Assembly: GCA_005884685.1 (NCBI GenBank)
Contig: VBAH01000038.1
Span: 1 to 63,763 of the forward strand
DNA length: 63,763 bases
Reading direction: 5' to 3'
Source: Alphaproteobacteria bacterium
Lineage (GTDB): Bacteria > Pseudomonadota > Alphaproteobacteria > Rhizobiales > Xanthobacteraceae
How positions within the stretch are numbered: position 1 is the stretch's first letter; each line of letters opens with the position of its first letter. Under the pieces are notes generated by a model. That model was not told the DNA's origin. It worked only from the letters and a program-made list of their open reading frames with translations, and made no database searches. Positions 11,072 to 31,951 of this stretch are shown in pieces. The translations under genes and the position numbers were made by a program.

Positions 11072-11836
11072 ATGGTTCGCCCGCTCGCCGTCCGCCGCCA
11101 CAACGAGATCGTGCAACGTTTGCGCGCGGCCGGTTCGGTCAGCGTCGGCGAGCTTGCGACCGTCTTCGGCGTCTCGCACGAGACCATCCGGCGCGATTTG
11201 AAGCTGCTCGCGGACAACGGCCACCTCGACGTGGTGCACGGGGGCGCTGCGCGGCGCGGCATGATGGAGCCCTCGATCGCCCAGCGCGGCGAGGAGAACG
11301 CCGCGGGCAAGCTCGCGATCGCGCGCGCGGCCGCGCGCATGGTGGCCGACGCGAGCTCTCTCTTGATCGACTCCGGCACCACGACCGCGGCGCTGACGCA
11401 GGAACTGCTCGGCCGGCCCGGGCTCACCATTTTCACCAACTCGCTCAATCATGCGGTCACGCTCTGCCGCGTGCCGGGCAATCGCGTGGTGATGCTGGGC
11501 GGCGAGGTCGACAACAACGACGAGGCGACTTTCGGCACCGGCACGGCGACCGGAATCGACAGCGCGCGTGCTGACGTCGCATTCATCGGCGTCGGCGGGT
11601 TCGCCGAGGATGGCGGCATGACCGACTACTCGGTGGTCGCCGCGGAAACGCGCGGAAAGATGATCATGGCGGGCCGTGCTTATTTGCTCGCGGATCACAC
11701 CAAGTTCACGCGGCGCACGCCGTTTCGCGTGCCGAATATGGATAAATGCGCCGGCGTTATCGTCGACTGCATGCCGGATCGCGCGCTCGCGTCCATCTGG
11801 GCCGATCTGGGGTGGACCATCATCGTGGCGAAATAG
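11072..11836 (+). CDS. DeoR/GlpR-family transcriptional regulator
   Basis: A 254-residue repressor-type protein. An N-terminal winged helix-turn-helix (SVSVGELATVFGVSHETIRR, residues ~19-38) is followed by the HGGA linker and a DeoRC effector domain with SLLIDSGTTTAALTQEL, which in the family binds phosphorylated small molecules. ATG 11072 (MVRPLAVRRHNE) fits family N-termini better than the ATG ten codons upstream. It lies just ahead of the first FAD-GcvT gene in the same direction. The region upstream (10991) and the gap downstream (11841-11862) contain TGTGA-type sequences that could be its operators; that link is inference. Confidence 0.92.
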   Translation: MVRPLAVRRHNEIVQRLRAAGSVSVGELATVFGVSHETIRRDLKLLADNGHLDVVHGGAARRGMMEPSIAQRGEENAAGKLAIARAAARMVADASSLLIDSGTTTAALTQELLGRPGLTIFTNSLNHAVTLCRVPGNRVVMLGGEVDNNDEATFGTGTATGIDSARADVAFIGVGGFAEDGGMTDYSVVAAETRGKMIMAGRAYLLADHTKFTRRTPFRVPNMDKCAGVIVDCMPDRALASIWADLGWTIIVAK

Positions 11837-11840
11837 AATT

Positions 11841-11862
11841 GGTATTTTGTGATATTCTGTTG
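11841..11862 (+). promoter_or_regulatory. Candidate operator/promoter motif shared with phnW
   Basis: GGTATTTTGTGA followed by TATTCT lies 40 bases upstream of the FAD-GcvT start in a short AT-rich gap. It closely matches GGTATTATGTGA...AATTCT upstream of phnW (19733-19755). The match is by eye; statistical significance was not computed. Confidence 0.45.
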
Positions 11863-11902
11863 CTAGGTTTGGCATGCCGATCGAACCTGAGCCCGCAAGC
11901 GA

Positions 11903-14350
11903 ATGGACTCTCCCATATTTCCCGATAGCGCCCGGGCGGTCGTCATCGGCGGCGGCGTGATCGGCTGCTCGGTCGCCTACCATCTGGCGAAGCTCGGCTG
12001 GCGCGACATCATTCTGCTGGAGCAGGGCCGTCTCACCTGCGGCACCACGTGGCATGCGGCGGGCCTGGTCGGGCAACTGCGCGCGCACCAGAACATGACG
12101 CGGCTGGTGCAGTATTCGGCGCAGCTCTACCAGAGCCTCGAGGCCGAAACCGGGCAGGCGACCGGATGGAAGCAGTGCGGCTCGGTGCTGGTGGCGCGCG
12201 CGCCGGAGCGCGTCACGCTGTTCAAAAGGATCGCATCCGCGGCGCGTGCGCAGGGTGTCGCGTGCGAAATCATTTCGGTCGAGGAGGCCGCGCGAAAGTA
12301 TCCGGTGATGCGCACCGACGACATCCTCGGCGCGCTGTGGCTGCCGGATGACGCCAAGGTCAACCCCGCGGACGTGACGCAGGCGCTGGCCAAGGGCGCG
12401 CGCATGGGCGGCGCCAGAATTTTCGAGCAGACGCGCGTCACCGCGATCCACCAGAAGAATGGCATCGCGACCGGCGTCGCCACCTCGCGCGGCGACATTG
12501 CGGCCGAGGTCGTCATCAATTGCGCCGGGCAATGGGCAAAGCAGGTCGGCCGCCTCGCGGGCGTGACGGTGCCGCTGCATTCGGCCGAGCACATGTACAT
12601 CGTCACCGGCCGCATCGACGGCGTGCATTCCGACTTGCCCGTGCTGCGCGATCCGGATGGCTACATCTACGTCAAGGAAGAAGTCGGCGGGCTCTTGATG
12701 GGCGGCTTCGAGCCGGTCGCGAAGCCCTGGGGCGCGGACGGCATCCCGGAGAATTTCGAGTTCGGCATGCTCCCCGACGACTGGGACCAGTTCCAGATCC
12801 TGATGGAGAACGCGCTGATCCGGCTGCCGTGCCTGGAGACGGCCGAGATCAAGACCTTCATGAACGGCCCGGAGAGCTTTACGCCCGACAACAATTTCAT
12901 CATGGGCGAGGCGCCGGAATGTAAGAATTTCTTCGTCGCGGCCGGCTTCAACTCGATCGGGATCGCATCGGGCGGTGGCGCCGGGCGCGCGCTGGCCGAA
13001 TGGATCGCCGCGGGCGAGCCCTCGCTCGACCTGTGGCCGGTCGACATCCGCCGCTTCGCGCGCTTCCACGATAACGACCGCTTCCTCAGGGAACGCGTCA
13101 GCGAGGTGCTCGGCCTGCACTACATGATGCCGTGGCCGAACCGCGAATTGCAGTCGGCCCGGCCGCTGCGCCGCTCGCCGCTGTATGACCGGCTCGCGGC
13201 GCAGAACGCGCTGTTCGGCTCCAAGATGGGTTGGGACCGCGCCAACTTCTTCGCGCCGACGAAGGCCGAGGCGCGCATCGACTATTCGTGGGAGAAGCAG
13301 AACTGGTTTCCCTACGCGGCGGCCGAGCACGCGGCGACGCGCGAAGCGGTGACGATCGCCGATCTCAGCTCGTTTGCGAAATTTCTCGTGCAGGGCCGCG
13401 ACGCGGAGCGCGCGCTGCAATATCTCTGCGCCAACGATGTCGCGGTGCCGGTCGGCACGACGGTCTACACCGGCCTGCTCAATGCGCGCGGGACCTACGA
13501 GAGCGATCTGACCGTCGCGCGCCTCGGCGCCGATCGCTTCATGCTCGTGACCGGTACGGCGCAAGCCACGCGCGATGCGAACTGGATCAGGCGTAACCTT
13601 GGCGAGGCGGATGCGGCGCTCACCGACATCACCTCGGCCTATGCGGTGATTGCCGTGATGGGGCCGCGCGCGCGCGATCTGCTGGCGCGCCTGACCATGG
13701 CACCGCTCGGTCATGAGGCGTTTGCGTTCGGCGCGATCCGCGAAATCGGCATCGGCTACGCGACGGTGCTCGCCGCGCGCCGTACGTATGTGGGCGAGCT
13801 CGGCTGGGAGCTTTATGTCCCGACCGAGTACGCGTCCGGCGTCTATGACGCATTGATGGAGGCCGGCGCCGGTCTCGGCGTGCGCAACGCCGGCTACTAC
13901 GCGATCGAGTCGTTGCGGCTCGAAAAGGGCTACCGCGCCTGGGGCCGCGAGCTGACGCCCGATTACAATCCGTATGAGGCGGGTTTGAGTTTCGCCGTGA
14001 AGCGCAACAAGGACGATTTTCTCGGCCGCGCGGCGCTGCTCGCCGCGAAGGGAAAGCCGCCGGCGCGCCGGCTGATGAGCTTCGTCGCGCTGTCGCCCGA
14101 TACGCCGATCGCGCATGGCGGCGAATTGATCCTGCGCAACGGCGAACCCGCGGGCGAAGTGACTTCGGCCTCGTACGGCCACACCGTCGGAGGGATCGTC
14201 GCGCTCGGCTACGTGGCGACCGGCGGGGCGCGCATCGATGATGCCTGGCTCTCCGCCCGCTTCGCGATCGACATTGCCGGCGAGCGCGTACCCGTGCGGG
14301 CGAGCCTCAGGCCGCCGTACGATCCGGCCGGCGCGCGCGTGAAGGCATAG
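11903..14350 (+). CDS. FAD-dependent oxidoreductase-GcvT fusion (dimethylglycine/sarcosine dehydrogenase family)
   Basis: An 815-residue two-part enzyme. The N-terminal DAO half has the dinucleotide motif VVIGGGVIGCSVAYHLAKLG and the covalent-flavin-type segment TTWHAAGLVGQ. The C-terminal half is a GcvT-like folate-binding domain (TYVGELGWELYVPTEY, RLEKGYRAWG). Family members oxidatively remove an N-methyl group from dimethylglycine or sarcosine-like substrates and pass the one-carbon unit to tetrahydrofolate. Here a DMT exporter gene follows after 4 bases and a paralogue lies at 25289. Given the phosphonate genes nearby, an N-methylated aminophosphonate is a possible substrate, but dimethylglycine or sarcosine remains the default. 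No strong ribosome binding site is seen. Confidence 0.9.
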   Translation: MDSPIFPDSARAVVIGGGVIGCSVAYHLAKLGWRDIILLEQGRLTCGTTWHAAGLVGQLRAHQNMTRLVQYSAQLYQSLEAETGQATGWKQCGSVLVARAPERVTLFKRIASAARAQGVACEIISVEEAARKYPVMRTDDILGALWLPDDAKVNPADVTQALAKGARMGGARIFEQTRVTAIHQKNGIATGVATSRGDIAAEVVINCAGQWAKQVGRLAGVTVPLHSAEHMYIVTGRIDGVHSDLPVLRDPDGYIYVKEEVGGLLMGGFEPVAKPWGADGIPENFEFGMLPDDWDQFQILMENALIRLPCLETAEIKTFMNGPESFTPDNNFIMGEAPECKNFFVAAGFNSIGIASGGGAGRALAEWIAAGEPSLDLWPVDIRRFARFHDNDRFLRERVSEVLGLHYMMPWPNRELQSARPLRRSPLYDRLAAQNALFGSKMGWDRANFFAPTKAEARIDYSWEKQNWFPYAAAEHAATREAVTIADLSSFAKFLVQGRDAERALQYLCANDVAVPVGTTVYTGLLNARGTYESDLTVARLGADRFMLVTGTAQATRDANWIRRNLGEADAALTDITSAYAVIAVMGPRARDLLARLTMAPLGHEAFAFGAIREIGIGYATVLAARRTYVGELGWELYVPTEYASGVYDALMEAGAGLGVRNAGYYAIESLRLEKGYRAWGRELTPDYNPYEAGLSFAVKRNKDDFLGRAALLAAKGKPPARRLMSFVALSPDTPIAHGGELILRNGEPAGEVTSASYGHTVGGIVALGYVATGGARIDDAWLSARFAIDIAGERVPVRASLRPPYDPAGARVKA

Positions 14351-14354
14351 CCGG

Positions 14355-15200
14355 GTGGACCCCTTCGTCTTCGCCGCCGTGCTGGTTGCCGCCGCGTGCC
14401 ACGCCGCGTGGAACGCCCTGATCAAGATCAGGCTCGATCCGTTTCTCGCGATCGTGCTGATCTCGGCGATGGCCGGCATCGTCGCCTTGCCGCTGCTGTT
14501 GTACGTGCCGGTGCCGCCGCCCGCGGCATGGCCGTGGCTCGCGCTCTCGGTCGCGGCGCATCTCGGCTACTACATCGGCCTCTCCGGCGCCTACCGCGCG
14601 GGCGACATGGGGCAGGTTTACCCGATCGCGCGCGGCACCGCGCCGCTGATGACCGCGGCCGGCGGCGCGCTCCTGCTCGGCGAGAATTTCAACGTCGTCG
14701 GCTGGGGCGGCATTTTCGCGCTGACGTCGGGAATTTTCCTGCTCTCGCTGCGCGGCGGCGGCGAGTTTGCGCATCTCAACCGCCGCGCGGTCGGCTACGC
14801 GCTGTTCACCGCGGTGACGATCTGCTGCTACTCGCTGGTCGACGGGCAAGGCGCGCGCACCGCCGGCAACGCGCATAGCTATGCGCTATGGCTGTTCGTG
14901 ATCGACGGCGCGTTCATCACCGGCGTCGCGCTGCTCAGGCATGGCACCGGCGTGGTCCCGGGCGTGCTGCGCTTCTGGAAGAGCGGGCTGATCGGCGGCA
15001 CGCTCTCGCTCGCGGCGTACTGGATCGTGATCTGGGCGATGACCGTCCAGCCGATCGCGATCGTGGCGGCGCTGCGCGAGACCAGCGTGCTGTTCGCCGC
15101 GCTGATCGCGGTCGCGATCCTGAAGGAGCCGCTGCGCGCGAGCCGGGTTGTCGCGGCCGTGCTGATCGTCGCGGGCCTTGCCGCGATCAGGCTGCAGTAG
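14355..15200 (+). CDS. EamA/DMT-superfamily transporter
   Basis: A 281-residue inner-membrane protein with about ten hydrophobic segments in two EamA-like halves (first ~1-135, second ~150-281), GLSGAYRAGDMGQVYPIARG being typical of the family. The GTG start is 4 bases after the FAD-GcvT stop, so the two are probably co-transcribed and translationally linked. Such proteins generally export small metabolites or amino acids; whether this one handles a methylated amine or by-product of the upstream enzyme cannot be told from sequence. Confidence 0.88.
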   Translation: MDPFVFAAVLVAAACHAAWNALIKIRLDPFLAIVLISAMAGIVALPLLLYVPVPPPAAWPWLALSVAAHLGYYIGLSGAYRAGDMGQVYPIARGTAPLMTAAGGALLLGENFNVVGWGGIFALTSGIFLLSLRGGGEFAHLNRRAVGYALFTAVTICCYSLVDGQGARTAGNAHSYALWLFVIDGAFITGVALLRHGTGVVPGVLRFWKSGLIGGTLSLAAYWIVIWAMTVQPIAIVAALRETSVLFAALIAVAILKEPLRASRVVAAVLIVAGLAAIRLQ

Positions 15201-17432: not shown

Positions 17433-17473
17433 GGGCGTGCTTTCCTGACTTGTTGCGGCACGCCCACCATAGA

Positions 17474-19768: not shown

Positions 19769-20914
19769 ATGCGCGCAAAGCCCGCCGCCGCGTCCGACAC
19801 CGGCGATCCGCTGCTGCTGACCCCCGGCCCGCTCACGACCGGCAAGCGCGTGAAAGAGGTGATGGTCCACGACTGGGGCTCGCGCGACGCGACATTTCTG
19901 AAGATCAACGCCGAGGTGCTGACGCGGCTGCCCGAGATCGTGAATGGCGAGGGCGACTACGTCACCGTCCCGATGCAGGGCTCGGGCACGTTCGCCGTCG
20001 AGGCGATGCTGACCACGTTCGTGCCGCCGACCGGCCATGTGCTGGCGCTGATCAACGGCGCTTACGGCCATCGCGCCCGGAAGATTTTGGATATCGCAAA
20101 GCGCAAGGTCACCGTGCACGAGACGCCGGAGGACACGCCGCCCGATCTCGCGGTGGTGGAGCATCTGCTGAAAGCAGATGCCACGATCACCCACGTCTTG
20201 GCCGTGCATTGCGAGACCACGTCGGGCATCCTCAATCCGATCGGCGAGATCGCCGCGCTGGCGCGGACATATGGCAGGAGCTTTCTGCTCGATTCGATGA
20301 GTGCCTTCGGGGCGCTGCCGCTCGACGCGCAAGGGCTCGGCGTCGATGCGATCGCGGCCTCCTCGAACAAATGCATCGAGGGCGTGCCGGGGCTCGGCTT
20401 CGTGATCGCGCGGCGCGCCGCGCTCGAGCAAACGCAAGGGAACGCGACGACCTTGGTGCTCGACCTGCACGACCAGTGGCGCAACTTCGAAAAGACCGGG
20501 CAGTACCGCTTCACGCCGCCGATCCATGTGATCGTGTCGTTCCATCAGGCGCTGATGGAGTTTTTTGCCGAGGGCGGGCAGCCGGGGCGGGGCAAGCGCT
20601 ATGCCGAGAACTGCCGCGTGCTGATCGAGGGCATGCGCGCGCTCGGCTTCGAGACCTTGCTCGGCAGCAACCTGCAGGCGCCGATCATCGTCACGTTTCG
20701 CATGCCGGCCGATCCGGCGTTCCGCTTTCAGGCGTTCTACGACGCGCTGAAGGAGCGCGGCTACGTGATCTATCCCGGCAAGCTGACGGTGGCGGACTCA
20801 TTCCGCATCGGCTGCATCGGGCGGCTATACCCTGATCACATGCGTGGCGCGCTGGCGGCGATCCGCGATATTCTGGATGAGATGGGCGTGAAGAGCTTGA
20901 AGGCGGCGGCATGA
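19769..20914 (+). CDS. phnW: 2-aminoethylphosphonate--pyruvate transaminase
   Basis: A 381-residue class V aminotransferase converting 2-aminoethylphosphonate plus pyruvate to phosphonoacetaldehyde plus alanine. It shows the PhnW hallmarks LLTPGPLTTGKRVK and DWGSRDATFL at the N-terminus, GSGTFAVEAM for phosphate binding, and SSNKCIEGVPGLGF, with the PLP lysine at residue ~201. The next genes are phnA and phnY, so the product is oxidised to phosphonoacetate rather than cleaved by PhnX. The short AT-rich leader carries an operator-like palindrome. Call is firm by motif and by context. Confidence 0.95.
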   Translation: MRAKPAAASDTGDPLLLTPGPLTTGKRVKEVMVHDWGSRDATFLKINAEVLTRLPEIVNGEGDYVTVPMQGSGTFAVEAMLTTFVPPTGHVLALINGAYGHRARKILDIAKRKVTVHETPEDTPPDLAVVEHLLKADATITHVLAVHCETTSGILNPIGEIAALARTYGRSFLLDSMSAFGALPLDAQGLGVDAIAASSNKCIEGVPGLGFVIARRAALEQTQGNATTLVLDLHDQWRNFEKTGQYRFTPPIHVIVSFHQALMEFFAEGGQPGRGKRYAENCRVLIEGMRALGFETLLGSNLQAPIIVTFRMPADPAFRFQAFYDALKERGYVIYPGKLTVADSFRIGCIGRLYPDHMRGALAAIRDILDEMGVKSLKAAA

Positions 20915-21006: not shown

Positions 21007-22257
21007 ATGAACATCCAGCGCACCCCGACGGTCTCGGTCAACGGCCGCGAGTACAGGTTTCCGAAATCACCGACCGTGTGCGTATGCATCGACGGCTCGG
21101 AGCCGGGCTATATCGAGCGCGCGATCGATGCGGGGCTGGCGCCGAATTTCGCGCGGCTGATGACGACCGGCGCGAACCTCACAGCGCTCTCGGCAATGCC
21201 GAGCTTCACCAATCCGAACAACATCTCGATCATCACCGGGCGCCCGCCGGCGGTGCACGGCATCGCGGGCAACTATTTCTTCGATCCCGCGCAGGGCAAG
21301 GAAGTGATGATGAACGACGCGAGCTTCCTGCGCGCGCCGACCATCATGCAGGCGTTCCACGATTTCGGCGCCAAGGTCGCGGTCGTGACCGCCAAGGACA
21401 AGCTGCGCGCACTGCTCGGTCACGGCCTCGACATGGCGAGCGGCCGCGCGATCGCGTTCTCCTCCGAGAAGGCCGACAAGGCAACGGTGCCGGACAACGG
21501 CATCGGCGATGTGCTTAAGCGCATCGGCAAGCCGCTGCCGCAGGTTTACTCGTCCGATCTCTCCGAGTTCGTTTTTGCCGCCGGCGTCTCGATCCTCAAG
21601 CGCGAGCGGCCCGACCTGATGTATCTCTCGACCACCGACTACGTGCAGCACAAGGCGGCGCCCGGCAGCGAAATGGCGAACGCGTTCTACGCCATGATGG
21701 ACCGCTATGTCGGCGAGCTGGATGCGCAGGGCTGCGTACTCGTGCTCACGGCCGACCACGGCATGAACGACAAGCATCTGCCGAACGGCGAACCTGACGT
21801 GATCTACCTGCAGAGGCTGTTCGACGAATGGCCCGGCGCCGGCGCGGCGCGCGTCATCCTGCCGATCACCGATCCGTATGTGGCGCATCATGGCGCACTG
21901 GGATCGTTCGCGACGGTCTATCTGCCGGCAGGCACTGACGTTGACGCGATTCTCACGCGCCTGCGCGCGGTCGAGGGCGTCGACGTTGCACTCAGCCGCG
22001 ATGAGGCCTGGGCACGTTTCGAGCTGCCGGCCGACCGCATCGGCGACATCCTGGTGGTCTCCACCATCCACAAGGTGCTCGGCACCAGCCAGGAGCGGCA
22101 CGATCTCTCCGGCCTCACCGAGCCGTTGCGCTCGCACGGCGGGCTGACCGAGCAGGTGGTGCCGATGATCGCTAATCGGAAAGTAACGCTGCCCGAGGGG
22201 CACCGGCTGCGCAACTTCGACGTGTTCGACGTGGCGCTGAACAGGGTTGCGGCATGA
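21007..22257 (+). CDS. phnA: Phosphonoacetate hydrolase
   Basis: A 416-residue alkaline-phosphatase-superfamily enzyme cleaving the C-P bond of phosphonoacetate to acetate and phosphate. The di-zinc residues are visible: Asp29 in VCIDGSEPG, the nucleophile Thr68 in [17 protein letters not shown], Asp and His in STTDYVQHK, Asp-His in TADHGMND, and the final His in SHGGLTEQ. These numbers agree with the known rhizobial enzyme as I remember it. It overlaps phnY by 4 bases (ATGA). Here it supplies the Pi-releasing step of the PhnW-PhnY-PhnA route. Confidence 0.95.
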
Positions 22258-23705
22258 ACATCCACACCACTCCCCCGGTGCGCCACGAGGCGATGCGCAT
22301 CGCCGGCAAGCGCGTCGAGACGGACCAGCAGATCGAAGTGCTCAACCCGTACACCGGCGCGGTCGTCGGCACCGTGCCGGCGGCGCGGGGCGAGCATGTG
22401 CGCGAGGCGTTCGCGAAAGCGAAATCCTTCAAGCCGAAGCTCACGCGCTACGAGCGCCAGCAAATCCTGCTGCGCACCGCCGATCTGCTCGCCGCCCGCA
22501 AGGAGGACTTCGCCCGGCTGATCACCGCAGAGTCCGGCCTGTGCTGGAAGGACTCGCTCTACGAGGCGGGGCGCGCCTACGACGTCTATTCGTTCGCCGG
22601 CCAGCTCACCATCAAGGACGACGGCGAGACCTACGCCTGCGATATTTCTCCGCAGGGCAAGCAGCGCAAGATCTTCACCACGCGCTTTCCGCTCAACGGC
22701 GTCATCTCGGCGATCACGCCGTTCAATCACCCGCTCAACATGGTGTCGCACAAGTTGGCGCCCGCGATCGCGACCAACAACCGCGTGGTGCTCAAGCCTA
22801 CCGAGCTGACGCCGCTGACTGCATTGGCGCTCGCCGATGTGCTGTACGAAGCGGGCCTCCCGCCGGAGATGCTGTCGGTCGTCACCGGCAATCCGGGGAC
22901 GATGGGCGACGCGATGATCACCGACCCCGATTGCGATCTGATCACGTTCACCGGCTCGGTGAAGGTCGGCAAGTACATCGCCGACAAGGCCGGCTACCGC
23001 CGCATCGTGCTGGAGCTGGGTGGCAACGATCCGCTGATCGTGATGGAGGACGCCGACCTCGACAAGGCGGCCGAGCTTGCCGTCACCGGTGCGACGAAGA
23101 ACTCGGGCCAACGCTGCACCGCCGTGAAGCGCATCCTGGTGGTCGACAGGGTGGCGGACGAATTCGCCCAGCTCGTGCTCGCCAAGGCGAAGAAGCTGAA
23201 AGCCGGCGACCCGATGGATCCGGCGACCGACGTCGGCACCGTGATCCACGAGGGCGCCGCGAAGAACTTCGAGCGCCGCGTGAACGATGCGGTGCACAAA
23301 GGCGCGAAGCTGCTGCACGGCAATAACCGGCAGGGCGCGCTCTATCCGCCGACCGTGGTCGACCACGTGCCGTACGGCTGCGAGCTGGTGCACGAGGAGA
23401 CGTTCGGGCCGGTGATCCCGATCATCCGCTGCCCGGATGACATCGCGCAGGTGATCCGCATTTCCAATTCGACGGCGTACGGCCTCTCGTCCGGCGTGTG
23501 CACCAACCGGCTCGACTACATCACGCGCTTCATCAACGAGCTCGATGTCGGCACCGTCAACGTCTGGGAAGTGCCGGGCTACCGCATCGAGATGTCGCCG
23601 TTCGGCGGCATCAAGGATTCCGGCCTCGGCTACAAGGAGGGCGTGGTCGAGGCGATGAAGAGCTTCACCAACGTGAAGACGTATTCGCTGCCGTGGCCAA
23701 GCTGA
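22254..23705 (+). CDS. phnY: Phosphonoacetaldehyde dehydrogenase
   Basis: A 483-residue NAD-dependent aldehyde dehydrogenase oxidising phosphonoacetaldehyde to phosphonoacetate. It has the NAD-site [14 protein letters not shown], the glutamate of [12 protein letters not shown] and the catalytic cysteine (~288) in [12 protein letters not shown]. The overlap with phnA and the presence of phnW upstream identify it as PhnY rather than a generic dehydrogenase. The three genes form one translationally compact unit, interrupted only by a palindromic element between phnW and phnA. Confidence 0.95.
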
Positions 23706-23707: not shown

Positions 23708-23852
23708 TGTCATCCCGGCCAAGCGGCCGCAGGCCGCGCGCGCCGGGACCCATTGCGCCGCTGATACCAGGAGGAAGAATGGGTCCCGGGTCTCGCTGAG
23801 CCTGTCATCGGGCCGCGCTTCGCGCGGGCCCGTTGGCTCGGCCGGGATGACA
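23708..23852. repeat. Palindromic TCATCCCGG element carrying nested insert 2 (copy C)
   Basis: Starts CTGTCATCCCGGCC and ends CTCGGCCGGGATGACA. At 23798-23839 it contains, in reverse orientation, the ~40-bp insert also present at ~37001-37045 and ~52165-52204: CTGTCATCGGGCCGCG then CGCGGGCCCGTTGG. It separates phnY from the Rieske gene. Confidence 0.8.
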
Positions 23853-23867
23853 TTGGAGTTGGTGGGG

Positions 23868-25163
23868 ATGACCGGTTCCGTCTACGACTACGATCCCGAG
23901 CGCATCGAAGCGCTGTGCGGCGCCTACCGCGGTGCCGGGCCGCTCACGCGGCCGTTCTACACCTCGCCCGAAATCCACAATGCCGACATGGACCGCATCT
24001 GGCGGCGCCACTGGCTCTACGCCGGACACGCCTGCCTGATCCCGCGGCCCGGCGACTGGATGACCTGGGCGATCGGGTTCGACTCGGTGATTTTGGCGCG
24101 CGGCAAGGACGGCGAACTTCGCGCGTTTCACAACACCTGCCGGCATCGCGGCGCGCGCGTCTGCCGTGAGGAGCAGGGGCATGCACGCGCCTTCGTCTGC
24201 CCTTATCACGCCTGGACCTACGATCTCGATGGCCGCCTGAAGACCGCGACCGAGCGCGAGTTCGGTGTGCATCCATCCAGGCTCGGGCTGCATCCGGTGC
24301 CGTTGAAGAATGTCGCCGGGCTGTTGTTCGTCGCGCTCGGCGACGATCCGGTGAGCTTCGATCGCGTCGCCGCTGAAGTTGGCGACGAAATGAAGCATCA
24401 GGGGCTTGAGGACGCGAAGCTCGCGAAAAGCGTCCGCTACACGGTGAAAGCCAACTGGAAGCTCGTCTTCGAGAACAATCGCGAGTGCTATCACTGTAAC
24501 ACCGCGCATCCCGAATATGTGCGGGGCACCTACGACACCGCGCGCTTTTCGCCGCAGACCATGCCTGAAGTCGAGCGCGCCGAAAAGCTTGCGAGCGAGC
24601 GCTTCGCCCGCATGGGCCTCGGCGACGCGATGGCGTCATCCGAGATGACCGGCGCCTACTGGCGCGCCGCGCGTACGCCGCTGGTGGAAGGGTGGGTAAC
24701 TCAGAGCCTCGACGGCAAGCGGGTGGCGCCGCTGATGGGGACGTTCCGCGCGCGTAACGAATGGAGCGCCGGCACGCTGCGCTCGACCATCTTCCCGAAT
24801 TTCTGGCAGCACGCGAGCGACGACCACGCGGTCGCGACCCGCCTCACGCCGATCGATGCCACGACCTGTCAGGCCGATGTCACTTGGTTCGTGCACAAGG
24901 ACGCGGTCGAGGGGAAGGACTACGACCTCGCCAAGCTGATGCCGTTCTGGCAGCGCACCTCGGAGCAGGATTGGGAGATTTGCGAGGCGAACCAGGCCGG
25001 CATCCTGTCGCCGCGCTATGAGCCGGGGCCGTATTCGAGCGTGCGCGAAACCAACGTGCAGCATTTCGTCGATTGGTATCTGGGCGCGCTAGTGTCCCGA
25101 TTCCGACGTTCGTATCCCTTACCGCGCGCTCTTCCACGAACGTCGGAATCGAAAGGACACTAG
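23868..25163 (+). CDS. Rieske oxygenase alpha subunit, quaternary-amine (GbcA-like) type; 3' end altered by a palindromic insert
   Basis: A 431-residue mononuclear-iron oxygenase. The Rieske cluster is CRHRG...FVCPYHAWTYD (residues ~94-115); the catalytic iron site is ENNRECYHCNTAHPE, in which Glu replaces the usual Asp between the domains, as in carnitine- and glycine-betaine-type demethylases. It would therefore oxidise an N-methyl group, releasing formaldehyde. ATG 23868 follows GGAGTTGGTGGGG. The last 16 residues (SRFRRSYPLPRALPRTSE..) are encoded by a hairpin; beyond two hairpins an in-frame PRAHLKAVRG plus stop remains, which looks like the original tail. No reductase partner is in the window. 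Confidence 0.88.
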   Translation: MTGSVYDYDPERIEALCGAYRGAGPLTRPFYTSPEIHNADMDRIWRRHWLYAGHACLIPRPGDWMTWAIGFDSVILARGKDGELRAFHNTCRHRGARVCREEQGHARAFVCPYHAWTYDLDGRLKTATEREFGVHPSRLGLHPVPLKNVAGLLFVALGDDPVSFDRVAAEVGDEMKHQGLEDAKLAKSVRYTVKANWKLVFENNRECYHCNTAHPEYVRGTYDTARFSPQTMPEVERAEKLASERFARMGLGDAMASSEMTGAYWRAARTPLVEGWVTQSLDGKRVAPLMGTFRARNEWSAGTLRSTIFPNFWQHASDDHAVATRLTPIDATTCQADVTWFVHKDAVEGKDYDLAKLMPFWQRTSEQDWEICEANQAGILSPRYEPGPYSSVRETNVQHFVDWYLGALVSRFRRSYPLPRALPRTSESKGH

Positions 25164-25164: not shown

Positions 25165-25175
25165 CAATGTTTGAT

Positions 25176-25288: not shown

Positions 25289-27703
25289 TTGAGCAAGATT
25301 CCCGGCGCCGCCCGCATCGTCATTATCGGCGGCGGCGCCATCGGCTGTTCCATTGCCTATCATCTGGCGAAGCTCGGCCAGCGCGACGTGTTGCTCTTGG
25401 AAAAGAAGACGCTCACGGCCGGATGCACGTGGCACGCCGCCGGCCTGCTCGGGCAGATGCGCTCCAAGGTCAATCTTACGCGGCTGATGCAGTACTCGGC
25501 GAAGCTGTGCGCGACGATCGGCGCGGAAGTCGATCAGGATGTCGGCTGGCGCAATGTCGGTAGCATCCGTCTGGCGAGCAGCGATGCGCGCTGGGAGGAA
25601 TTGAAGCGCGCCGCGACTGCGGCGAAAAGCTACGGCTTCGACCTCGAGCTGATCGGGCCGAACGAGGTCAAAGACAAGTTTCCGCTGGTCGATCTGAAAG
25701 ACGTGCGCGGTGCGACCTGGATCGCCAGCGACGGTTACGTCGATCCCTATTCGCTCACCATGGCGTATGCGAAAGGCGCGCGGCAGGGCGGCGTGAAGAT
25801 CGTCGAAGGCGCGATGGTCACCGGCTTCCGGCAGGCGAATGGGCGGATCACGCATGTCGTCACCGATCAGGGCGAGGTCGCCTGCGAGATCGCCGTCAAT
25901 GCCGCGGGCCTGTGGGCGCGGCACGTCGGCGAGATGGCCGGGATCGAACTTCCGGTTACCGTGGTCGAACACCAGTATCTGGTGACGGAGAAATCTCCGC
26001 TCATTCCCGACCGCCAGCCGACGCTGCGCGACCCGGACCTGAATTTCTATTTGAAGTCCGAGCCGGGCGCGCTCGCGATCGGCGGCTGGGAGCGCGGCAC
26101 GATTGCGGTGAATGGTTTGGGCAAGCTGCCACTCGATTTCGGGCAGGAGCTGTTTCAGCAAAACCTCGACCGCCTCGCCGAAATCGCCGGTCCTGCGGCG
26201 GAACGCATCCCGGTGCTCAACGAGGTCGGCATCCGCACCGTGATCAACGGCCCGATCCCGGTCTCGGCCGACGGCGAACCCGTGATGGGCATCGCGGAAG
26301 GGATCGAGAACTTCTTCATCGCCTGCGGCTTCACCGCCGGCATTGCGGCTTCGGGCGGTGCGGGCCTCGCGATGGCGAACTGGATCGCCAGCGGCGATCC
26401 CGGCATGGATCTCTGGCCATTCGATCTGCGCCGCTTCGGCAGACTGCACAGCGGGCTTGCCTATCTGCGCGATGCCGCGATTGAAAGCTACGCGCGCTAC
26501 TACACGATCGCGTGGCCGGAGGAGGAGCGCGAAGCCTGCCGCCCGCTGCGCCGTTCGCCGCTGCACGCGATCCTCGCTGCCAACGGCGCGGTGCACGGGC
26601 AGAAATTCGGTTTCGAGCGTCCGAATTTTCTCGTGAATGGCAAGGCGCCCTCGCTCGAAACCTTCGAGCGCTCGGCGCTCGCGCCAGTCGTCTCCCGCGA
26701 GCACAGGGCGATCCGCGAGAGTGTCGCGCTGATCGACATGTCCTCATTCTCCAAGTTCGAGATCACCGGGCAGGGCGCGCTGCGCACTCTGCAATGGCTC
26801 GCGGCGGGAAACCTCGACAAGGGCGCGGGCGCCGTCGTCTATACCCAGCTTCTCAATGCCAAGGGCGGCATCGAGGCCGATCTCACCATCATGCAGCCCA
26901 AGGAAGGCACGTTCTATGTGGTGACCGGCTCGGGCTTCGGCGTGCGCGACGGCGGCTGGATCCGCAAGCACATGCCGCGCGACGGCTCGGTCGCCTTCAA
27001 GGACGTGTCGAGCGCCTATGGGGTGATCAATCTGTGCGGGCCGCGCGCGCGCGACGTGCTCAGCCTCGCCAGCGAAAACGACGTGTCGAATGCGGCGTTC
27101 CCCTACATGACCTGCCACTGGATCCGCATCGGCTATGCGCCGGTGATGGCGGCGCGCATCACCTATGTGGGCGAACTCGGCTGGGAATTGCACGTCCCGA
27201 CCGAATTCGTCGCCTATGTCTACGAGACGCTGCGCGCGGCAGGCGCCGCCTTCGGCATCACGGATGCCGGCTACAAGGCGATCAACAGCCTGCGGATGGA
27301 AAAGCGCTACCTCTACTGGAGCGCCGACATCTCGCCTGACGAAACACCGCTCGAAGCTGGCCTCGGTTTTGCTGTGTCGCTCCGGAAGGGCGATTTCCTC
27401 GGGAAGGACGCGCTGCTGGCGCAAAAGGAGGCAGGGCTCAAGCGCCGGCTGGAATGTTTCGCGCTGGAAACGCCCCTTTCGGTCTATGGTGGGGAGGCGA
27501 TGATCGCCAACGGCAAGATCATCGGCATGACCACCAGCGGCGATTTCGGGCACTCGGTCGGCCGATCGCTGGTGCTCGGCTATGTGCCGGCCGAGTATTT
27601 CGGGCAGAACTCAATCGAAATCGAGGCTTTCGGCCGGCGCAGCCTTGCGACCCGTGTCGAGGGGTGCATTTACGATCCGAAGAACGAGCGGGTGCGGGCA
27701 TGA
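25289..27703 (+). CDS. FAD-dependent oxidoreductase-GcvT fusion, second copy (sarcosine/dimethylglycine dehydrogenase family)
   Basis: An 804-residue paralogue of the enzyme at 11903: VIIGGGAIGCSIAYHLAKLG for FAD, CTWHAAGLLGQMRSK for the flavin-linking region, and a C-terminal GcvT domain (TYVGELGWELHVPTEF). It starts at TTG 25289 after AAGGCGG; the TTG overlaps the TGA that I take to be the original stop of the Rieske gene (TTGA), consistent with a former coupled oxygenase-demethylase pair. Placement after phnWAY and before the aminoethylphosphonate importer suggests demethylation of an imported N-methylated amine. Substrate is not proven by sequence. Confidence 0.9.
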   Translation: MSKIPGAARIVIIGGGAIGCSIAYHLAKLGQRDVLLLEKKTLTAGCTWHAAGLLGQMRSKVNLTRLMQYSAKLCATIGAEVDQDVGWRNVGSIRLASSDARWEELKRAATAAKSYGFDLELIGPNEVKDKFPLVDLKDVRGATWIASDGYVDPYSLTMAYAKGARQGGVKIVEGAMVTGFRQANGRITHVVTDQGEVACEIAVNAAGLWARHVGEMAGIELPVTVVEHQYLVTEKSPLIPDRQPTLRDPDLNFYLKSEPGALAIGGWERGTIAVNGLGKLPLDFGQELFQQNLDRLAEIAGPAAERIPVLNEVGIRTVINGPIPVSADGEPVMGIAEGIENFFIACGFTAGIAASGGAGLAMANWIASGDPGMDLWPFDLRRFGRLHSGLAYLRDAAIESYARYYTIAWPEEEREACRPLRRSPLHAILAANGAVHGQKFGFERPNFLVNGKAPSLETFERSALAPVVSREHRAIRESVALIDMSSFSKFEITGQGALRTLQWLAAGNLDKGAGAVVYTQLLNAKGGIEADLTIMQPKEGTFYVVTGSGFGVRDGGWIRKHMPRDGSVAFKDVSSAYGVINLCGPRARDVLSLASENDVSNAAFPYMTCHWIRIGYAPVMAARITYVGELGWELHVPTEFVAYVYETLRAAGAAFGITDAGYKAINSLRMEKRYLYWSADISPDETPLEAGLGFAVSLRKGDFLGKDALLAQKEAGLKRRLECFALETPLSVYGGEAMIANGKIIGMTTSGDFGHSVGRSLVLGYVPAEYFGQNSIEIEAFGRRSLATRVEGCIYDPKNERVRA

Positions 27704-27827
27704 GGCGCTCCCGCTGGCGCTACGCCAAGGAAACTGGGTAAGCTGATGTGGGAATTCGTGCAGGTGTCATCTGCCGGAAGCATTCGTCCGGGCTAGTTTC
27801 GACAGTTTTGAGGGGAAGGAGAACAAC

Positions 27828-28856
27828 ATGCTCAAACGAGGTTTCGCTCTCTTGGGCGCGGGTTGTCTTGCCGCGCTCGTTGCGGCGGCGCCGGCATTCG
27901 CGCAGAAGACAAAAGTTACGCTCTATACGGCACTCGAGAACGACCAGCTCGGCCCGTTTAAGCAGATCATCGAGGCCGCGGTGCCCGAAGCCGATATCGT
28001 GTGGGTGCGCGACTCCACTGGCGTCATCACGGCGCGCTTCTTGGCCGAGAAGGACAATCCGCGCGCCGACATGGTGTTCGGCCTTGCGGTCACCAGCCTG
28101 ATCCTGTTCGAGAAGCAGGGCCTGCTGGAGACTTATGAGCCCAAGGGCGTAGACAAGCTCAGGCCCCAGTTCCGCGACGGTACACCGCCCTACACCTGGA
28201 CCGGCATGGACGCGTTCGTGTCTGTCGTGTGTTTCAACACGGCCGAAGCCGCCAAGGGCAACGTCAAGGCGCCAACCTCCTGGAAGGACCTGACCGGGCC
28301 TGAGTACAAGGGCAAGATTGTCATGCCGCATCCGGCGTCGTCCGGCACCGGCTATCTCGCGGTTGCGGCCTGGCTGCAGATCATGGGCGAGGCCGAGGGC
28401 TGGAAGTTCATGGACGGCCTGCACGAGAACATCGGGGTCTATACCCATTCCGGCTCGGCGCCGTGCGTGCAGGCGGCGAAGGGCGAACGGATGGTCGGGA
28501 TCGGCTTCGACATGCGCGGCGCGCGTGAGAAGTCGCAAGGGGCGCCGCTCGAACTCATCCTGCCGAAGGAAGGCGCCGGCTGGGATATGGAGGCGACCAG
28601 CATCGTCAAGGGCACGAAGAATCTTGCCATCGCCAAGCAGATTGCCGATTGGGGCGCGAGCAAACAGGCGAGCGAGCTTTACTCGAAGTATTACGCGCTG
28701 GTGGCCGACCCGACGGTGAGGAATCTTCCGACCAATTATCCGGCGACGGCCGAGCAGGCGATGGTGAAGAACGACTTCGCCTGGATGGCCGAGAACCGCG
28801 ACCGCATTCTCGCCGAATGGTCGAAGCGCTACGAAAGCAAGGCCGCGCCGAAATAA
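27828..28856 (+). CDS. 2-aminoethylphosphonate-type ABC transporter substrate-binding protein
   Basis: A 342-residue periplasmic receptor of the iron/thiamine/aminoethylphosphonate (SBP type 6-like) class. The signal peptide is MLKRGFALLGAGCLAALVAA..AFAQK. Mature motifs include VTLYTALENDQLGPFKQI, IVWVRDSTGVITARF and YKGKIVMPHPASSGTGYL, the pattern of receptors annotated for 2-aminoethylphosphonate. A GGGGAAGGAG ribosome binding site precedes ATG 27828. ATPase and permease genes follow, and phnWAY precedes, so uptake of 2-aminoethylphosphonate or an N-methyl derivative is the best reading. A palindrome directly follows the gene. Confidence 0.88.
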   Translation: MLKRGFALLGAGCLAALVAAAPAFAQKTKVTLYTALENDQLGPFKQIIEAAVPEADIVWVRDSTGVITARFLAEKDNPRADMVFGLAVTSLILFEKQGLLETYEPKGVDKLRPQFRDGTPPYTWTGMDAFVSVVCFNTAEAAKGNVKAPTSWKDLTGPEYKGKIVMPHPASSGTGYLAVAAWLQIMGEAEGWKFMDGLHENIGVYTHSGSAPCVQAAKGERMVGIGFDMRGAREKSQGAPLELILPKEGAGWDMEATSIVKGTKNLAIAKQIADWGASKQASELYSKYYALVADPTVRNLPTNYPATAEQAMVKNDFAWMAENRDRILAEWSKRYESKAAPK

Positions 28857-28859
28857 GAA

Positions 28860-28967
28860 CCTCATCCTGAGGAGCGCCTGAAGGGCGCGTCCCGAAGGAT
28901 GACCAGAGGCTCAGCGTGTGTTGCCATCCTTCGAGACGGGCGCTTTGCGCCCTCCTCAGGATGAGGG
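28860..28967. repeat. Palindromic 'CCTCATCCTGAGGAG' element after the binding-protein gene
   Basis: CCTCATCCTGAGGAGCGCC pairs with GCCCTCCTCAGGATGAGG, with CCGAAGGATG/CATCCTTCG as an inner stem. It differs in sequence from the TCATCCCGG family but occupies the equivalent position after a transporter receptor gene. Confidence 0.85.
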
Positions 28968-28986
28968 CATCGTACGCGGATTGGGG

Positions 28987-30111
28987 ATGCGCATGGATGC
29001 ATCGGTAAAGTCGATGCAGAGCGGCAGTGCGAACACCGCGGGCCCCTTCCTGCGCATCCGCGCGCTCGCGAAGCGGTTCGGCGCGTTCACGGCGCTCAAG
29101 GACATCGATCTCGATGTTGCGAAGGGGGAGTTCGTCTGCTTCCTCGGACCCTCCGGTTGCGGCAAGACCACGCTGCTGCGCGCGATCGCCGGCCTCGATC
29201 CGCAGGACGAGGGGCTGATCGAGATCGCGGGCCGCGACGTGTCGAACCTGCCGCCGGCCGCGCGCGACTTCGGCATTGTGTTCCAGTCCTACGCGCTGTT
29301 TCCCAACCTCACGGTCGCGGCGAATGTCGGCTACGGCCTGGTCAATCGCCGCGCCGGCAGGGCCGCGATGGATGCGCGCGTGAAGGAACTGCTGGCATTG
29401 GTCGGCCTGCCCGAGCAGGGCACGAAGTATCCGGGCCAGCTTTCCGGCGGTCAGCAGCAGCGCGTCGCGCTGGCCCGCGCGCTGGCTACCTCGCCCGGCC
29501 TCTTGCTGCTCGACGAGCCGCTCTCCGCGCTCGATGCGCGCGTGCGCGTGCGGCTGCGCGAGGAGATCAAGCAGCTGCAGCGCCGGCTCGGCGTCACCAC
29601 CATTATGGTGACGCACGACCAGGAAGAAGCGCTCGCGATGGCCGACCGCATCGTGGTGATGAGAGAGGGCGTGATCGAACAGGTAGGCACGCCGTCCGAG
29701 ATCTACCGCAAGCCCGCGACCGCGTTCGTCGCCGATTTCGTCGGCACGATGACGTTTCTCGATGCACAGGTGAGCGGCCCCGACCGGCTGCGCTTCGGCA
29801 CCATCGAACTGGCCTGCAACAGCATCAACGGATTTGCGCACGGCGCCGCGGTGCGCATCGGGCTGCGCCCGGAGGAAATCCGTGTGCGCAACATCGACGC
29901 CGCGACGCCGAACCGGATCGACGCGCGCGTTTCGCTGCTCGATTTCCTCGGCGCGTTCTGCCGCGCCCGGCTCGAGCCCGAGGCTGCCCCGGGTGTCGCC
30001 ATCCTCGCGGACTTCTCCGCCAACCTGATGCGCGATCTTTCCGTCGTCGAGGGGCAAACGCTCACCATCGCGCTGCCGCCGGAATCGCTGCGCGTGTTCG
30101 CCAAGTCATGA
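28987..30111 (+). CDS. 2-aminoethylphosphonate-type ABC transporter ATP-binding protein
   Basis: A 374-residue ATPase: Walker A GPSGCGKTT, Q-loop in IVFQSYALFPNLTV, signature LSGGQQQR, Walker B LLLLDEPLSALD, H-loop in VTHDQEEA, and a C-terminal TOBE-like regulatory domain (from ~270). It resembles the phosphonate/iron/spermidine branch. The open frame begins upstream inside the palindrome; ATG 28987 or 28993, preceded by TTGGGG, is preferred because residues before it are repeat-encoded. Works with the receptor upstream and the fused permease downstream. Confidence 0.9.
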   Translation: MRMDASVKSMQSGSANTAGPFLRIRALAKRFGAFTALKDIDLDVAKGEFVCFLGPSGCGKTTLLRAIAGLDPQDEGLIEIAGRDVSNLPPAARDFGIVFQSYALFPNLTVAANVGYGLVNRRAGRAAMDARVKELLALVGLPEQGTKYPGQLSGGQQQRVALARALATSPGLLLLDEPLSALDARVRVRLREEIKQLQRRLGVTTIMVTHDQEEALAMADRIVVMREGVIEQVGTPSEIYRKPATAFVADFVGTMTFLDAQVSGPDRLRFGTIELACNSINGFAHGAAVRIGLRPEEIRVRNIDAATPNRIDARVSLLDFLGAFCRARLEPEAAPGVAILADFSANLMRDLSVVEGQTLTIALPPESLRVFAKS

Positions 30112-30130
30112 AGGCCGCCACAGACACGAC

Positions 30131-30240
30131 TGTCATCCCGGGCGAGGCTGAAGGCCGAGACCCGGGACCCATTTCTGCGCGAACGCTGAGCGCGGTGGCA
30201 CATGGGTCCCGGCTTTCGCTGCGCTCGGCCGGGATGACAG
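30131..30240. repeat. Palindromic TCATCCCGG/CCGGGATGA element between ATPase and permease genes
   Basis: CTGTCATCCCGGGCGAGGC at the left and CGCTCGGCCGGGATGACAG at the right, with GGGACCCAT/ATGGGTCCC inner arms. The permease ATG follows 13 bases later. Confidence 0.85.
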
Positions 30241-30253
30241 GCGAGCGTTTGGC

Positions 30254-31951
30254 ATGAGCGTCGCCACGGTACCGCTTCCGGTGATCGCGCAACGGGTCTC
30301 GCGCGAGGCCTGGGTCGCGCGCGCCGGCGTCATCCTTCTGGTCGCGTGGCTGGTGCTATCGATCGCGCTGCCGCTGTGGGCGCTGTTGTCGAAAAGCTTC
30401 CAGAATGCGAACGGCGAATTCATCGGCGTCGCCAACTACCTGCGCTATTTCTCGACGCCGAGCCTGTTCAATTCGATCTTCAACAGCGTCGGCGTTGCGA
30501 TCGCGACCACGGTGATCGTGATTCCGCTCGCGTTCGTCTACGCCTACGCGCTCACGCGCACCCGCATGCGCTTCAAGGGGCTTTTTTACGCAGCAGCGAT
30601 GCTGCCGCTGTTCGCGCCGTCGCTGCTCTCCGCCATCTCCCTCATCTACCTGTTCGGCAACCAGGGCCTGCTCAAGGGCCTGATGTTCGGCTCGTCGATC
30701 TACGGCGCGAACGGGATCATCGTTGCGCAGGTGTTCTACTGCTTCCCGCACGCGCTGATCATTGCCGTCACCGCGCTCGCGCTCGCCGATGCGCGGCTCT
30801 ACGAGGTTGCCGACGCGCTCGGCACCAGGAAGTCGCGCATCTTCCGCACCGTCACCTTGCCGGGCGCGAAGTTCGGCCTGATCAATGCGGCCTTCGTGGT
30901 GTTCACGCTCGTCGTCACCGACTTCGGCATCGCCAAGGTGATCGGCGGCCAGTTCAACGTGCTCGCGACCGACGCCTACAAGCAGGTGGTCGGCCAGCAG
31001 AACTTCGAGATGGGTGCGGTGGTCGGCATGGTGCTGCTCGTGCCGGCGGTGCTCGCCTTCGTGATCGACCGCATGGTGCAGCGCCGCCAGGTGGCGCTGC
31101 TCTCGGCGCGCGCGGTTCCGCTCGAACCGAAGCAGAATCGCCCGCGCGACGCTGCGCTGATGGTCTACTGCCTCGTGATCGGCGGAATTCTGGTCGGCGT
31201 GCTCGGCACCGCGATCTGGGCCTCATTCATCACCTATTGGCCGTATAACCTCACGCCGACCTTGAAGAACTACGACTTCGCCAATTTCGATCCCGGCGGC
31301 TGGTCGCCGTATTTCACGTCGATCTGGATGGCGACGCTTGCGGCCGTGTTCGGCACGGGAATCGTGTTCACCGGCGCGTATGTCGTCGAGAAAACCAGGG
31401 TGATGCCGGGCGGGCGCATGATCGCGCATCTGCTCGCGATGCTGCCGATGGCGGTGCCCGGCCTGGTGCTGGGCCTGGGTTACGTGTTCTTCGTCAACGC
31501 CAGATGGAATCCGCTCGGCTTTCTCTACGGCACGCTCGCCGTGCTGGTGATCAACTCGATCGCGCATTTCTACACCGTGGCGCATATCACCTCGCTCACC
31601 GCGCTGAAGCAGATCGATCCGGAATTCGAATCGGTGTCCGCCTCGCTCAAGGTGCCGTTCTGGCGCACGTTCGCGCGTGTCACGGTGCCGATCTGCTGGC
31701 CCGCGATCCTCGACATTGCGATCTATATTTTTGTCAATGCGCTAACGACTGTGTCGGCAGTGATCTTCCTCTATGGACCCGACACCAAGCTCGCCGCGAT
31801 CGCCATCGTGCACATGGACGAGATGGGTGCCTCCGCCGCCGCCGCCGGCATGGCGACGATGATCGTGTTCACGGCGCTCGGCGCGAAGCTCTTGCAGCTC
31901 CTGCTCGACCGCCTGCTGTTCACGCGCCTGCAGGCCTGGCGCAAGAGATGA
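30254..31951 (+). CDS. 2-aminoethylphosphonate-type ABC transporter permease (fused double permease)
   Basis: A 565-residue inner-membrane protein with two binding-protein-dependent transport domains in tandem. The first EAA-type loop is YEVADALGTRKSRIFRTVTL (~residue 180), the second FESVSASLKVPFWRTFARV (~residue 460). About twelve transmembrane segments are apparent. A fused permease serves both halves of the channel, as in the FbpB/AfuB and aminoethylphosphonate systems. It completes a three-gene importer; no second permease gene is needed. Confidence 0.92.
   Translation: MSVATVPLPVIAQRVSREAWVARAGVILLVAWLVLSIALPLWALLSKSFQNANGEFIGVANYLRYFSTPSLFNSIFNSVGVAIATTVIVIPLAFVYAYALTRTRMRFKGLFYAAAMLPLFAPSLLSAISLIYLFGNQGLLKGLMFGSSIYGANGIIVAQVFYCFPHALIIAVTALALADARLYEVADALGTRKSRIFRTVTLPGAKFGLINAAFVVFTLVVTDFGIAKVIGGQFNVLATDAYKQVVGQQNFEMGAVVGMVLLVPAVLAFVIDRMVQRRQVALLSARAVPLEPKQNRPRDAALMVYCLVIGGILVGVLGTAIWASFITYWPYNLTPTLKNYDFANFDPGGWSPYFTSIWMATLAAVFGTGIVFTGAYVVEKTRVMPGGRMIAHLLAMLPMAVPGLVLGLGYVFFVNARWNPLGFLYGTLAVLVINSIAHFYTVAHITSLTALKQIDPEFESVSASLKVPFWRTFARVTVPICWPAILDIAIYIFVNALTTVSAVIFLYGPDTKLAAIAIVHMDEMGASAAAAGMATMIVFTALGAKLLQLLLDRLLFTRLQAWRKR

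Follow-up and report, generated by a model that had tools for sequence, protein, structure and literature searches.

The contig analysed here (VBAH01000038.1 of GenBank assembly GCA_005884685.1; 63 763 nt, all of which is referred to as the window) derives from an alphaproteobacterium of the family Xanthobacteraceae, order Rhizobiales, and carries a gene cluster for 2-aminoethylphosphonate (AEP) degradation in which a Rieske oxygenase and two fusions of a flavin adenine dinucleotide (FAD)-dependent oxidoreductase to a GcvT domain, termed FG1 and FG2, are also found. Genes were called with NCBIfam models at their curated cut-offs and with Pfam domain scans, in a genome of 5.39 Mb that is given as 100 % complete. 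On the plus strand the order is DeoR, FG1, an EamA-type gene, a 4.6 kb stretch, phnW, phnA, phnY, the Rieske oxygenase, FG2, PhnS2, PhnT2 and PhnU2, followed by a small GIY-YIG gene, PbfA, and glutamine-synthetase-like, aldehyde dehydrogenase and iron alcohol dehydrogenase genes (Table 1). The 4.6 kb stretch holds M20 peptidase-like and gluconolactonase-like genes on the opposite strand. Curated models and domains confirmed phnW, phnA, phnY, the Rieske oxygenase, both fusions and the importer where an earlier, sequence-only reading of this DNA had placed them, and the motif NRECYHC, read directly in the oxygenase, bears out the Glu in RECYH reported there for a Rieske protein between phnY and the second fusion. 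That reading also set phnW, phnA and phnY between the two fusions; the order holds, but FG1 is not adjacent, as it ends 5.4 kb before phnW with the EamA-type, M20 peptidase-like and gluconolactonase-like genes in the gap. The system also extends beyond the 11072–31951 that it proposed, taking in PbfA. Searches of the whole genome recovered one protein with PF00848 (Ring_hydroxyl_A) and two with FAO_M, each of them encoded at this locus.

Table 1. Features of the AEP locus, with positions in the window and the models or domains that identify them
Feature	Position	Strand	Basis or remark
DeoR-family regulator, adjoins FG1	11042..11836	+	Pfam DeoRC, HTH_DeoR
FG1, FAD-GcvT fusion, proposed N-methyl-AEP demethylase (last methyl)	11903..14350	+	DAO, FAO_M, GCV_T, GCV_T_C
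EamA-type membrane protein, TIGR03340-like (phosphonate utilisation associated)	14355..15200	+	160 bits, under cut-off 288; 4 bp past FG1
phnW, AEP-pyruvate transaminase	19769..20914	+	TIGR02326, 461 vs cut-off 401 bits
phnA, phosphonoacetate hydrolase	21007..22257	+	TIGR02335, 536 vs cut-off 408 bits
phnY, phosphonoacetaldehyde dehydrogenase	22254..23705	+	TIGR03250, 811 vs cut-off 636 bits
Rieske oxygenase, group Vb type, proposed trimethyl-AEP demethylase	23847..25163	+	Rieske, Ring_hydroxyl_A
FG2, FAD-GcvT fusion, proposed dimethyl-AEP demethylase	25289..27703	+	DAO, FAO_M, GCV_T, GCV_T_C
PhnS2, AEP-binding protein of importer	27828..28856	+	TIGR03261, 450 vs cut-off 393 bits
PhnT2, importer ATPase	28918..30111	+	TIGR03265, 526 vs cut-off 458 bits
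PhnU2, importer permease	30254..31951	+	TIGR03262, 768 vs cut-off 593 bits
PbfA, known AEP-pathway gene	32542..33912	+	NF049939, 672 vs cut-off 525 bits
Glutamine-synthetase-like, aldehyde dehydrogenase and iron alcohol dehydrogenase genes; possible side branch	33978..38311	+

The Rieske oxygenase and its association with phnW

Relatives of the Rieske oxygenase were collected from 84 980 scanned species genomes, and the best 80 loci of 586 stretches were used; within the order (397 genomes), the top matches other than the enzyme itself were 42–43 % identical. In trees with near-duplicate rows thinned, the window enzyme and 23 of the 80 loci formed one group of 24 rows (Shimodaira–Hasegawa-like approximate likelihood ratio test support of 82), separate from related Rieske proteins and drawn from Alphaproteobacteria and Verrucomicrobiota. 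When plasmid-encoded enzymes from Aminobacter, Shinella and Sinorhizobium RAC02 were included these joined the clade, giving 27 rows with support of 96. Locus L056 (loci and genomes of our surveys carry L and G numbers) is excluded because the tree places it elsewhere, and L052, too short for the tree, is nonetheless counted among the 24 clade genomes.

The closest solved structures were the stachydrine demethylase Stc2 (3vca, 4qup; 326 bits, Foldseek identity of 39 %) and 3n0q, followed by carnitine oxygenase. Seven residues, C98, H100, C118, H121, H216, H221 and D375, are invariant in 20 clade rows and 32 other Rieske rows; going by family motif, we take the first four to be the Rieske Cys2His2 ligands and the last three to be the 2-His-1-Asp ligands of the mononuclear iron. 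In the accessible portions of PMC7948474 and PMC10952381, Rieske group Vb is marked by a bridging Glu, a Cys-X-X-Cys pair and an Asn at the position of CntA Tyr203. Every one of the 20 clade rows has these marks (E213, C214, C217 and N211), as have all three Aminobacter-type rows; by its sequence the window enzyme bears the published signature of this demethylase group. At position 211 the 32 out-of-clade rows have Asn in 15 cases and Tyr or Phe in 17; GbcA and Stc2 both carry Asn there, according to PMC7948474. Furthermore, 16 positions separate the 20 clade rows from the 32 others, and 13 of these (including D230, T277, R312, N318, F319, W376, C379 and N403) were kept in all three plasmid enzymes, which had been left out of their discovery. 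Positions 227, 267 and 366 were not kept in the plasmid enzymes, and the window enzyme differs from most of the clade at positions 197 and 227; W368 is invariant across the 52 rows but replaced by His in the plasmid enzymes. The clade is a subfamily apart, with distinctive residues. On the GbcA model (NF058607, cut-off of 670 bits) the window enzyme scored 352 bits, and the cut-off was reached in none of 25 genomes (its own and the 24 of the clade). Ten out-of-clade relatives were scanned with the same model, of which two sister-group members scored 518–520 bits and eight scored 270–343 bits. As none of the ten reaches 670 bits and 17 of the 32 rows have Tyr or Phe at position 211, we dropped the label 'GbcA-like' for these proteins, which in our trees stand as related Rieske proteins with no verified GbcA among them.

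The transaminase gene phnW was present in all 24 clade genomes (23 over cut-off and one partial at a contig end; L034–L058 except L056). By comparison, it exceeded its cut-off in 16 of 49 genomes encoding out-of-clade relatives (20 of 49 at 1e-60), a control from which L099, L102, L108, L109, L112 and L113 (6 of the 56 out-of-clade loci), together with L083, were left out, and it was found in 92 of the 397 genomes of the order, the window's own included. Fisher tests of 24/24 against these two controls gave P ∼1e-7 and ∼3e-13, respectively, values that serve as a guide only because 23 of the 24 clade records are titled metagenome-assembled genomes (MAGs) and the clade genomes share ancestry, so that they are not independent. 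In 17 of these 24 genomes, which include both Alphaproteobacteria and Verrucomicrobia, phnA and phnY are found together with phnW. Close linkage was also seen: the AEP importer directly adjoins Rieske–FG2 in L038, L039, L040, L041, L043 and the window, whilst phnW, phnA and phnY lie near the clade Rieske gene in L034 and the verrucomicrobial L045, as do phnA and phnY in L039. In all 17 proteobacterial loci of the clade, the gene after the Rieske oxygenase encodes an FG2 homologue. A 1232 aa open reading frame in L039 was considered as a natural Rieske–FG2 fusion and rejected, as the domain scan found no Rieske domain in the frame and it is a gene-calling artefact. Outside the clade, Roseovarius aestuarii (L106) has phnA and phnY ∼5 kb from a Rieske gene (37 % identity), possibly another recruitment.

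FG1 and FG2 in AEP operons

Within the order, 19 non-self FG1 homologues of ≥ 60 % identity were identified; phnW was present in all 19 genomes and lay no more than 20 kb away in 14. Weaker homologues behaved differently: among the 130 matches listed, 58 were in phnW-containing genomes, and none was within 20 kb of phnW. In the 19 neighbourhoods phnW was in view in 14, PhnS2 or PhnU2 in 16, and either of the two in 18 (all but L276); a pbfA-like gene was in view in nine, and a DeoR homologue adjoined FG1 in 12. Six of these loci (L267 and L271–L275) carry DeoR, FG1, EamA, phnW, phnA, phnY, phnS2, phnT2 and phnU2 in the order of the window, and pbfA is in view in five; the stretch gave no match to the Rieske gene in any of the six, whereas in the window Rieske–FG2 lies between phnY and phnS2. 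In the tree the phn-linked FG1 proteins, including verrucomicrobial ones encoded beside phnW, constitute one group; homologues without phn linkage fall outside it, as do the FAD-GcvT pairs found beside related Rieske genes. FG1 clearly belongs to AEP clusters, even with no Rieske gene nearby. An example is the 1.65 Mb plasmid of Sinorhizobium meliloti RCAM1750, where DeoR–FG1 is found with phnW, phnA and importer genes and FG1 is annotated merely as an FAD-dependent oxidoreductase. Among the plasmid records of S. meliloti, which were those searched, no FG2 of ≥ 60 % identity was found. The phnY of this record (L287, 17754–19182) appears as two overlapping match pieces with no listed gene, and looks interrupted.

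FG1 and FG2 both keep the His, Tyr and Asp that align with His225, Tyr259 and Asp552 of dimethylglycine oxidase, the first two presumably belonging to the flavin site and the third to the folate site; in the same alignments mammalian dimethylglycine dehydrogenase has Glu at the Asp552 position.

Cultured bacteria show an independent arrangement of these genes. On its plasmid paAMD1, Aminobacter niigataensis MD1 carries, in order, the Rieske gene, a PDR/VanB reductase, FG2 (73 %), DeoR, a dihydrofolate-reductase-family gene and FG1 (64 %), followed by phnW, phnA, phnY and the importer, all within ∼27 kb. The block from Rieske to FG1 has the same arrangement in Aminobacter sp. MSH1, where the stretch read covers the block but no phn genes, and the reductase adjoins the Rieske gene in Aminobacter. 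In Sinorhizobium RAC02 and Shinella zoogloeoides Teo12, Rieske, FG2, FG1, a pbfA-like gene and PhnU2 were in view, and a pbfA-like gene is found with FG1 in L285 and L286 as well. On two Aminobacter plasmids (L282, 15265–15924; L311, 12265–12924) the dihydrofolate-reductase-family gene separates DeoR from FG1, a position beside FG1 that is in keeping with a folate link. A lack of co-occurrence with phnW outside the locus was one result by which the sequence-only reading said its idea would be refuted; co-occurrence was observed for the Rieske clade, the FG1 neighbourhoods, the six colinear operons and the Aminobacter plasmid, and the idea withstood this test.

Two further observations concern the surroundings of FG1 and the history of the cluster. 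A flavoenzyme of the old yellow enzyme type is encoded at 8587–10982, upstream of DeoR–FG1, and a homologue (62 %) immediately precedes FG1 in G397 (L191). In the window's own family, 18 other genomes were listed, and none matched phnW at 1e-100 or FG1 at 1e-180; the AEP cluster of the window was probably acquired horizontally.

A proposed demethylation route and its alternatives

We propose that the locus combines an AEP-degradation operon with an N-demethylation funnel, in which trimethyl-, dimethyl- and monomethyl-AEP would be converted to AEP with the carbon–phosphorus (C–P) bond intact; we put the probability of this at roughly 0.7. The observations on which it is based are the gene identities, their recurrence, operon colinearity and conserved residues, and from these we infer the substrates, the order of steps, the fate of the methyl groups and the electron donor. 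The base operon would provide import and conversion by PhnW, PhnY and PhnA to acetate and phosphate, with PbfA serving the hydroxylated analogue. The Rieske enzyme would oxidize a single methyl group of trimethyl-AEP, a quaternary amine, yielding dimethyl-AEP and formaldehyde; FG2 would then remove the second methyl to give monomethyl-AEP, and FG1 the third to give free AEP, each fusion oxidizing the N-methyl on FAD and handing the carbon to tetrahydrofolate. Free AEP would enter the PhnW, PhnY and PhnA sequence, PhnA cutting the C–P bond after the methyl groups have gone. The order is suggested by linkage: FG2 is assigned the dimethyl form because it adjoins the Rieske gene, and FG1 the monomethyl form because it occurs in AEP operons that lack Rieske–FG2. 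FG1 alone would accordingly be the more widespread module, acting on monomethyl-AEP and perhaps dimethyl-AEP too, to which Rieske–FG2 would be an add-on for trimethyl-AEP. In its broader form, towards which we lean with somewhat less assurance, the proposal is of a modular, C–P-sparing funnel in Alphaproteobacteria and Verrucomicrobia, built from a dedicated Rieske subfamily and from flavoenzymes, of which the window has two folate-linked ones, with FG1 by itself a common and overlooked monomethyl-AEP demethylase found in S. meliloti also.

Several observations weigh against this proposal, beginning with the shared ancestry and MAG origin of the clade genomes described above. In 7 of the 24, phnW was found without phnA or phnY in the fetched stretch; an AEP-type LysR regulator, scoring under its cut-off, flanks phnW in two of the seven (G401 and G407). 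For 17 of the 24 clade loci (L035, L036, L037, L042, L044, L046–L055, L057 and L058), the stretch examined shows neither phnW, phnA or phnY nor an importer set, several of them ending at contig ends and L048 having a generic ATPase match only, so the phnW evidence there is at genome level only. An FAO_M match was absent from 2 of 25 genomes (the window's own and those of the clade). No FG2 follows the Rieske gene in any of the seven verrucomicrobial loci; in five of them the next gene encodes a shorter FAD oxidoreductase (30–38 % identical to FG1 and FG2), namely in L045, where the contig end cuts it, and in L047, L051, L052 and L054, where it is possibly Pbf-like. L045, a verrucomicrobial MAG, has a phosphoenolpyruvate (PEP) mutase–nucleotidyltransferase fusion, phosphonopyruvate decarboxylase, phnW, phnA and phnY beside the clade Rieske gene, placing genes for phosphonate synthesis and breakdown side by side; as phnW lies beside PEP mutase, it may serve synthesis in that organism. 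No reductase was found in the scanned part of the window, the one Fer2-FAD-NAD (FAD_binding_6) reductase of the genome is unlinked to the locus, and the Aminobacter PDR/VanB reductase has no match in the window's genome. Finally, FG2 homologues of 53–58 % identity occur in genomes without phnW and are mixed in the tree with Rieske-linked FG2s, and in 10 neighbourhoods of such unlinked homologues we found no Rieske gene and no phn genes beyond generic ATPase and dehydrogenase matches. FG2 is the weakest link of the route, and because its close homologues stand away from phn genes and Rieske genes, it was abandoned as an independent pathway marker. Tandem FG1-like and FG2-like fusions with neither phn nor Rieske genes nearby are widespread (the tandem in L303–L307 and L309; also L301, L302, L308 and L310), and have an ABC ATPase in their neighbourhood. 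As such, the interpretation offered by the sequence-only reading, a pathway for N-methylated AEP, is partly supported: co-occurrence, the placement of FG1 in AEP clusters and the separate Rieske subfamily speak for it, whereas the substrates, the methyl taken by each FAD enzyme and the specificity of FG2 are proposals.

The most serious alternative, although we regard it as unlikely, is that FG1 works like PbfC, converting monomethyl-AEP directly to phosphonoacetaldehyde and methylamine, its folate domain then being either inactive or devoted to methyl groups from elsewhere. In the accessible text of PMC10590968, PbfB, PbfC and PbfD of AEP clusters act on monomethyl-AEP, and PbfC and PbfD yield phosphonoacetaldehyde with no formaldehyde detected, in an assay given as data not shown; in three genomes of the clade (L178, L180 and L201), moreover, FG1 has in its vicinity a glutamine-synthetase-like gene, whose product could handle an amine. 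Against this, the one probable PbfC compared, from Azospirillum B510 (accession not confirmed), consists of a single DAO domain without GCV_T and is 31–32 % identical to FG1 and FG2, whilst FG1 retains the acidic residue at the Asp552 position of dimethylglycine oxidase.

Less probable still is a betaine route, in which the Rieske enzyme, FG2 and FG1 would take glycine betaine through dimethylglycine and sarcosine to glycine, the phn genes being merely nearby. The enzyme classes are identical, out-of-clade loci in Rhizobium and Phyllobacterium likewise hold a Rieske gene with two FAD-GcvT genes, and with no second PF00848 or further FAO_M protein in the genome there is no betaine route of this kind elsewhere in it. 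This explanation has nevertheless lost ground, given the strong and repeated linkage to phn genes, the separation of FG1 from the FAD-GcvT pairs beside other Rieske genes, and the low GbcA score of the window enzyme, which falls under those of the two sister-group members, yet the eight remaining out-of-clade enzymes score no higher than it does. A natural substrate of N-methylated 1-hydroxy-AEP, demethylated and then opened by PbfA rather than PhnW, is improbable even beside these, as the presence of PbfA in the window and of pbfA-like genes with FG1 (9 of the 19 loci of the order, L285 and L286) has to be set against the 14 of the same 19 loci with phnW in view, and both substrates may be used.

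The three genes at the downstream end of the cluster may form a side branch for a γ-glutamyl amine or hydroxyethylphosphonate. Homologues of at least one of them precede FG1 in distant genomes (L178, L180, L183, L201, L266, L268, L270, L277 and L278), and the same was seen in genomes G402, G403, G404 and G406.

Should the proposed demethylation funnel be correct, methylated AEPs would supply the cell with phosphate, nitrogen and one-carbon units. It would represent a second route for trimethyl-AEP, made from betaine-type enzymes and tying phosphonate cycling to that of quaternary amines, with gene markers by which to follow it, and would give a function to rhizobial FAD-GcvT genes now annotated only as 'FAD-dependent oxidoreductase'. 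The route could be tested directly in the cultured strains.

Relation to known systems

A stepwise AEP demethylation route was not described in the literature searched, which comprised titles and the starts of abstracts, with most subscription papers and bioRxiv outside the search. The words Rieske, GcvT and folate are absent from the main text of PMC10590968, and Rieske was not found in the available portions of PMC10574752 and PMC12366243; PMC8316502, from what is accessible of it, covers AEP transporters. In PMC10590968, no enzyme studied was found to act on trimethyl-AEP, and its authors name the iron-oxygenase pair TmpAB as the only route described for that compound.

The system most similar in outline is PhnWAY with its ancillary Pbf enzymes (PMC10590968, PMC10574752, in the parts accessible), where additional genes in AEP clusters widen the substrate range, and PbfA itself is present in the window. 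PbfC and PbfD, however, are described there as making phosphonoacetaldehyde directly, whereas at this locus free AEP would be the product, made by a Rieske enzyme together with the folate-linked fusions. TmpA/TmpB, as cited in those same portions, share the proposed substrate, trimethyl-AEP, but cleave the C–P bond to give glycine betaine and phosphate, whilst at our locus the methyl groups would leave first and PhnA would cut the C–P bond. The three-step logic and enzyme classes resemble glycine betaine catabolism (GbcA and the dimethylglycine and sarcosine demethylases), from which the locus differs in that its Rieske enzyme scores below the GbcA cut-off, the genes reside in AEP operons and FG1 falls in a phn-linked clade. 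Stc2 (3vca, 4qup) and other group Vb Rieske proteins are among the closest solved structures and share the Vb signature; in the alignment with Stc2, D230 is common to both, but T277, R312, N318, F319, W376, C379 and N403 differ, and the context here is one of phn genes. FG1 and FG2, for their part, are of the dimethylglycine dehydrogenase/oxidase type, with which they share both the DAO-FAO_M-GCV_T-GCV_T_C architecture and the aligned His, Tyr and Asp.

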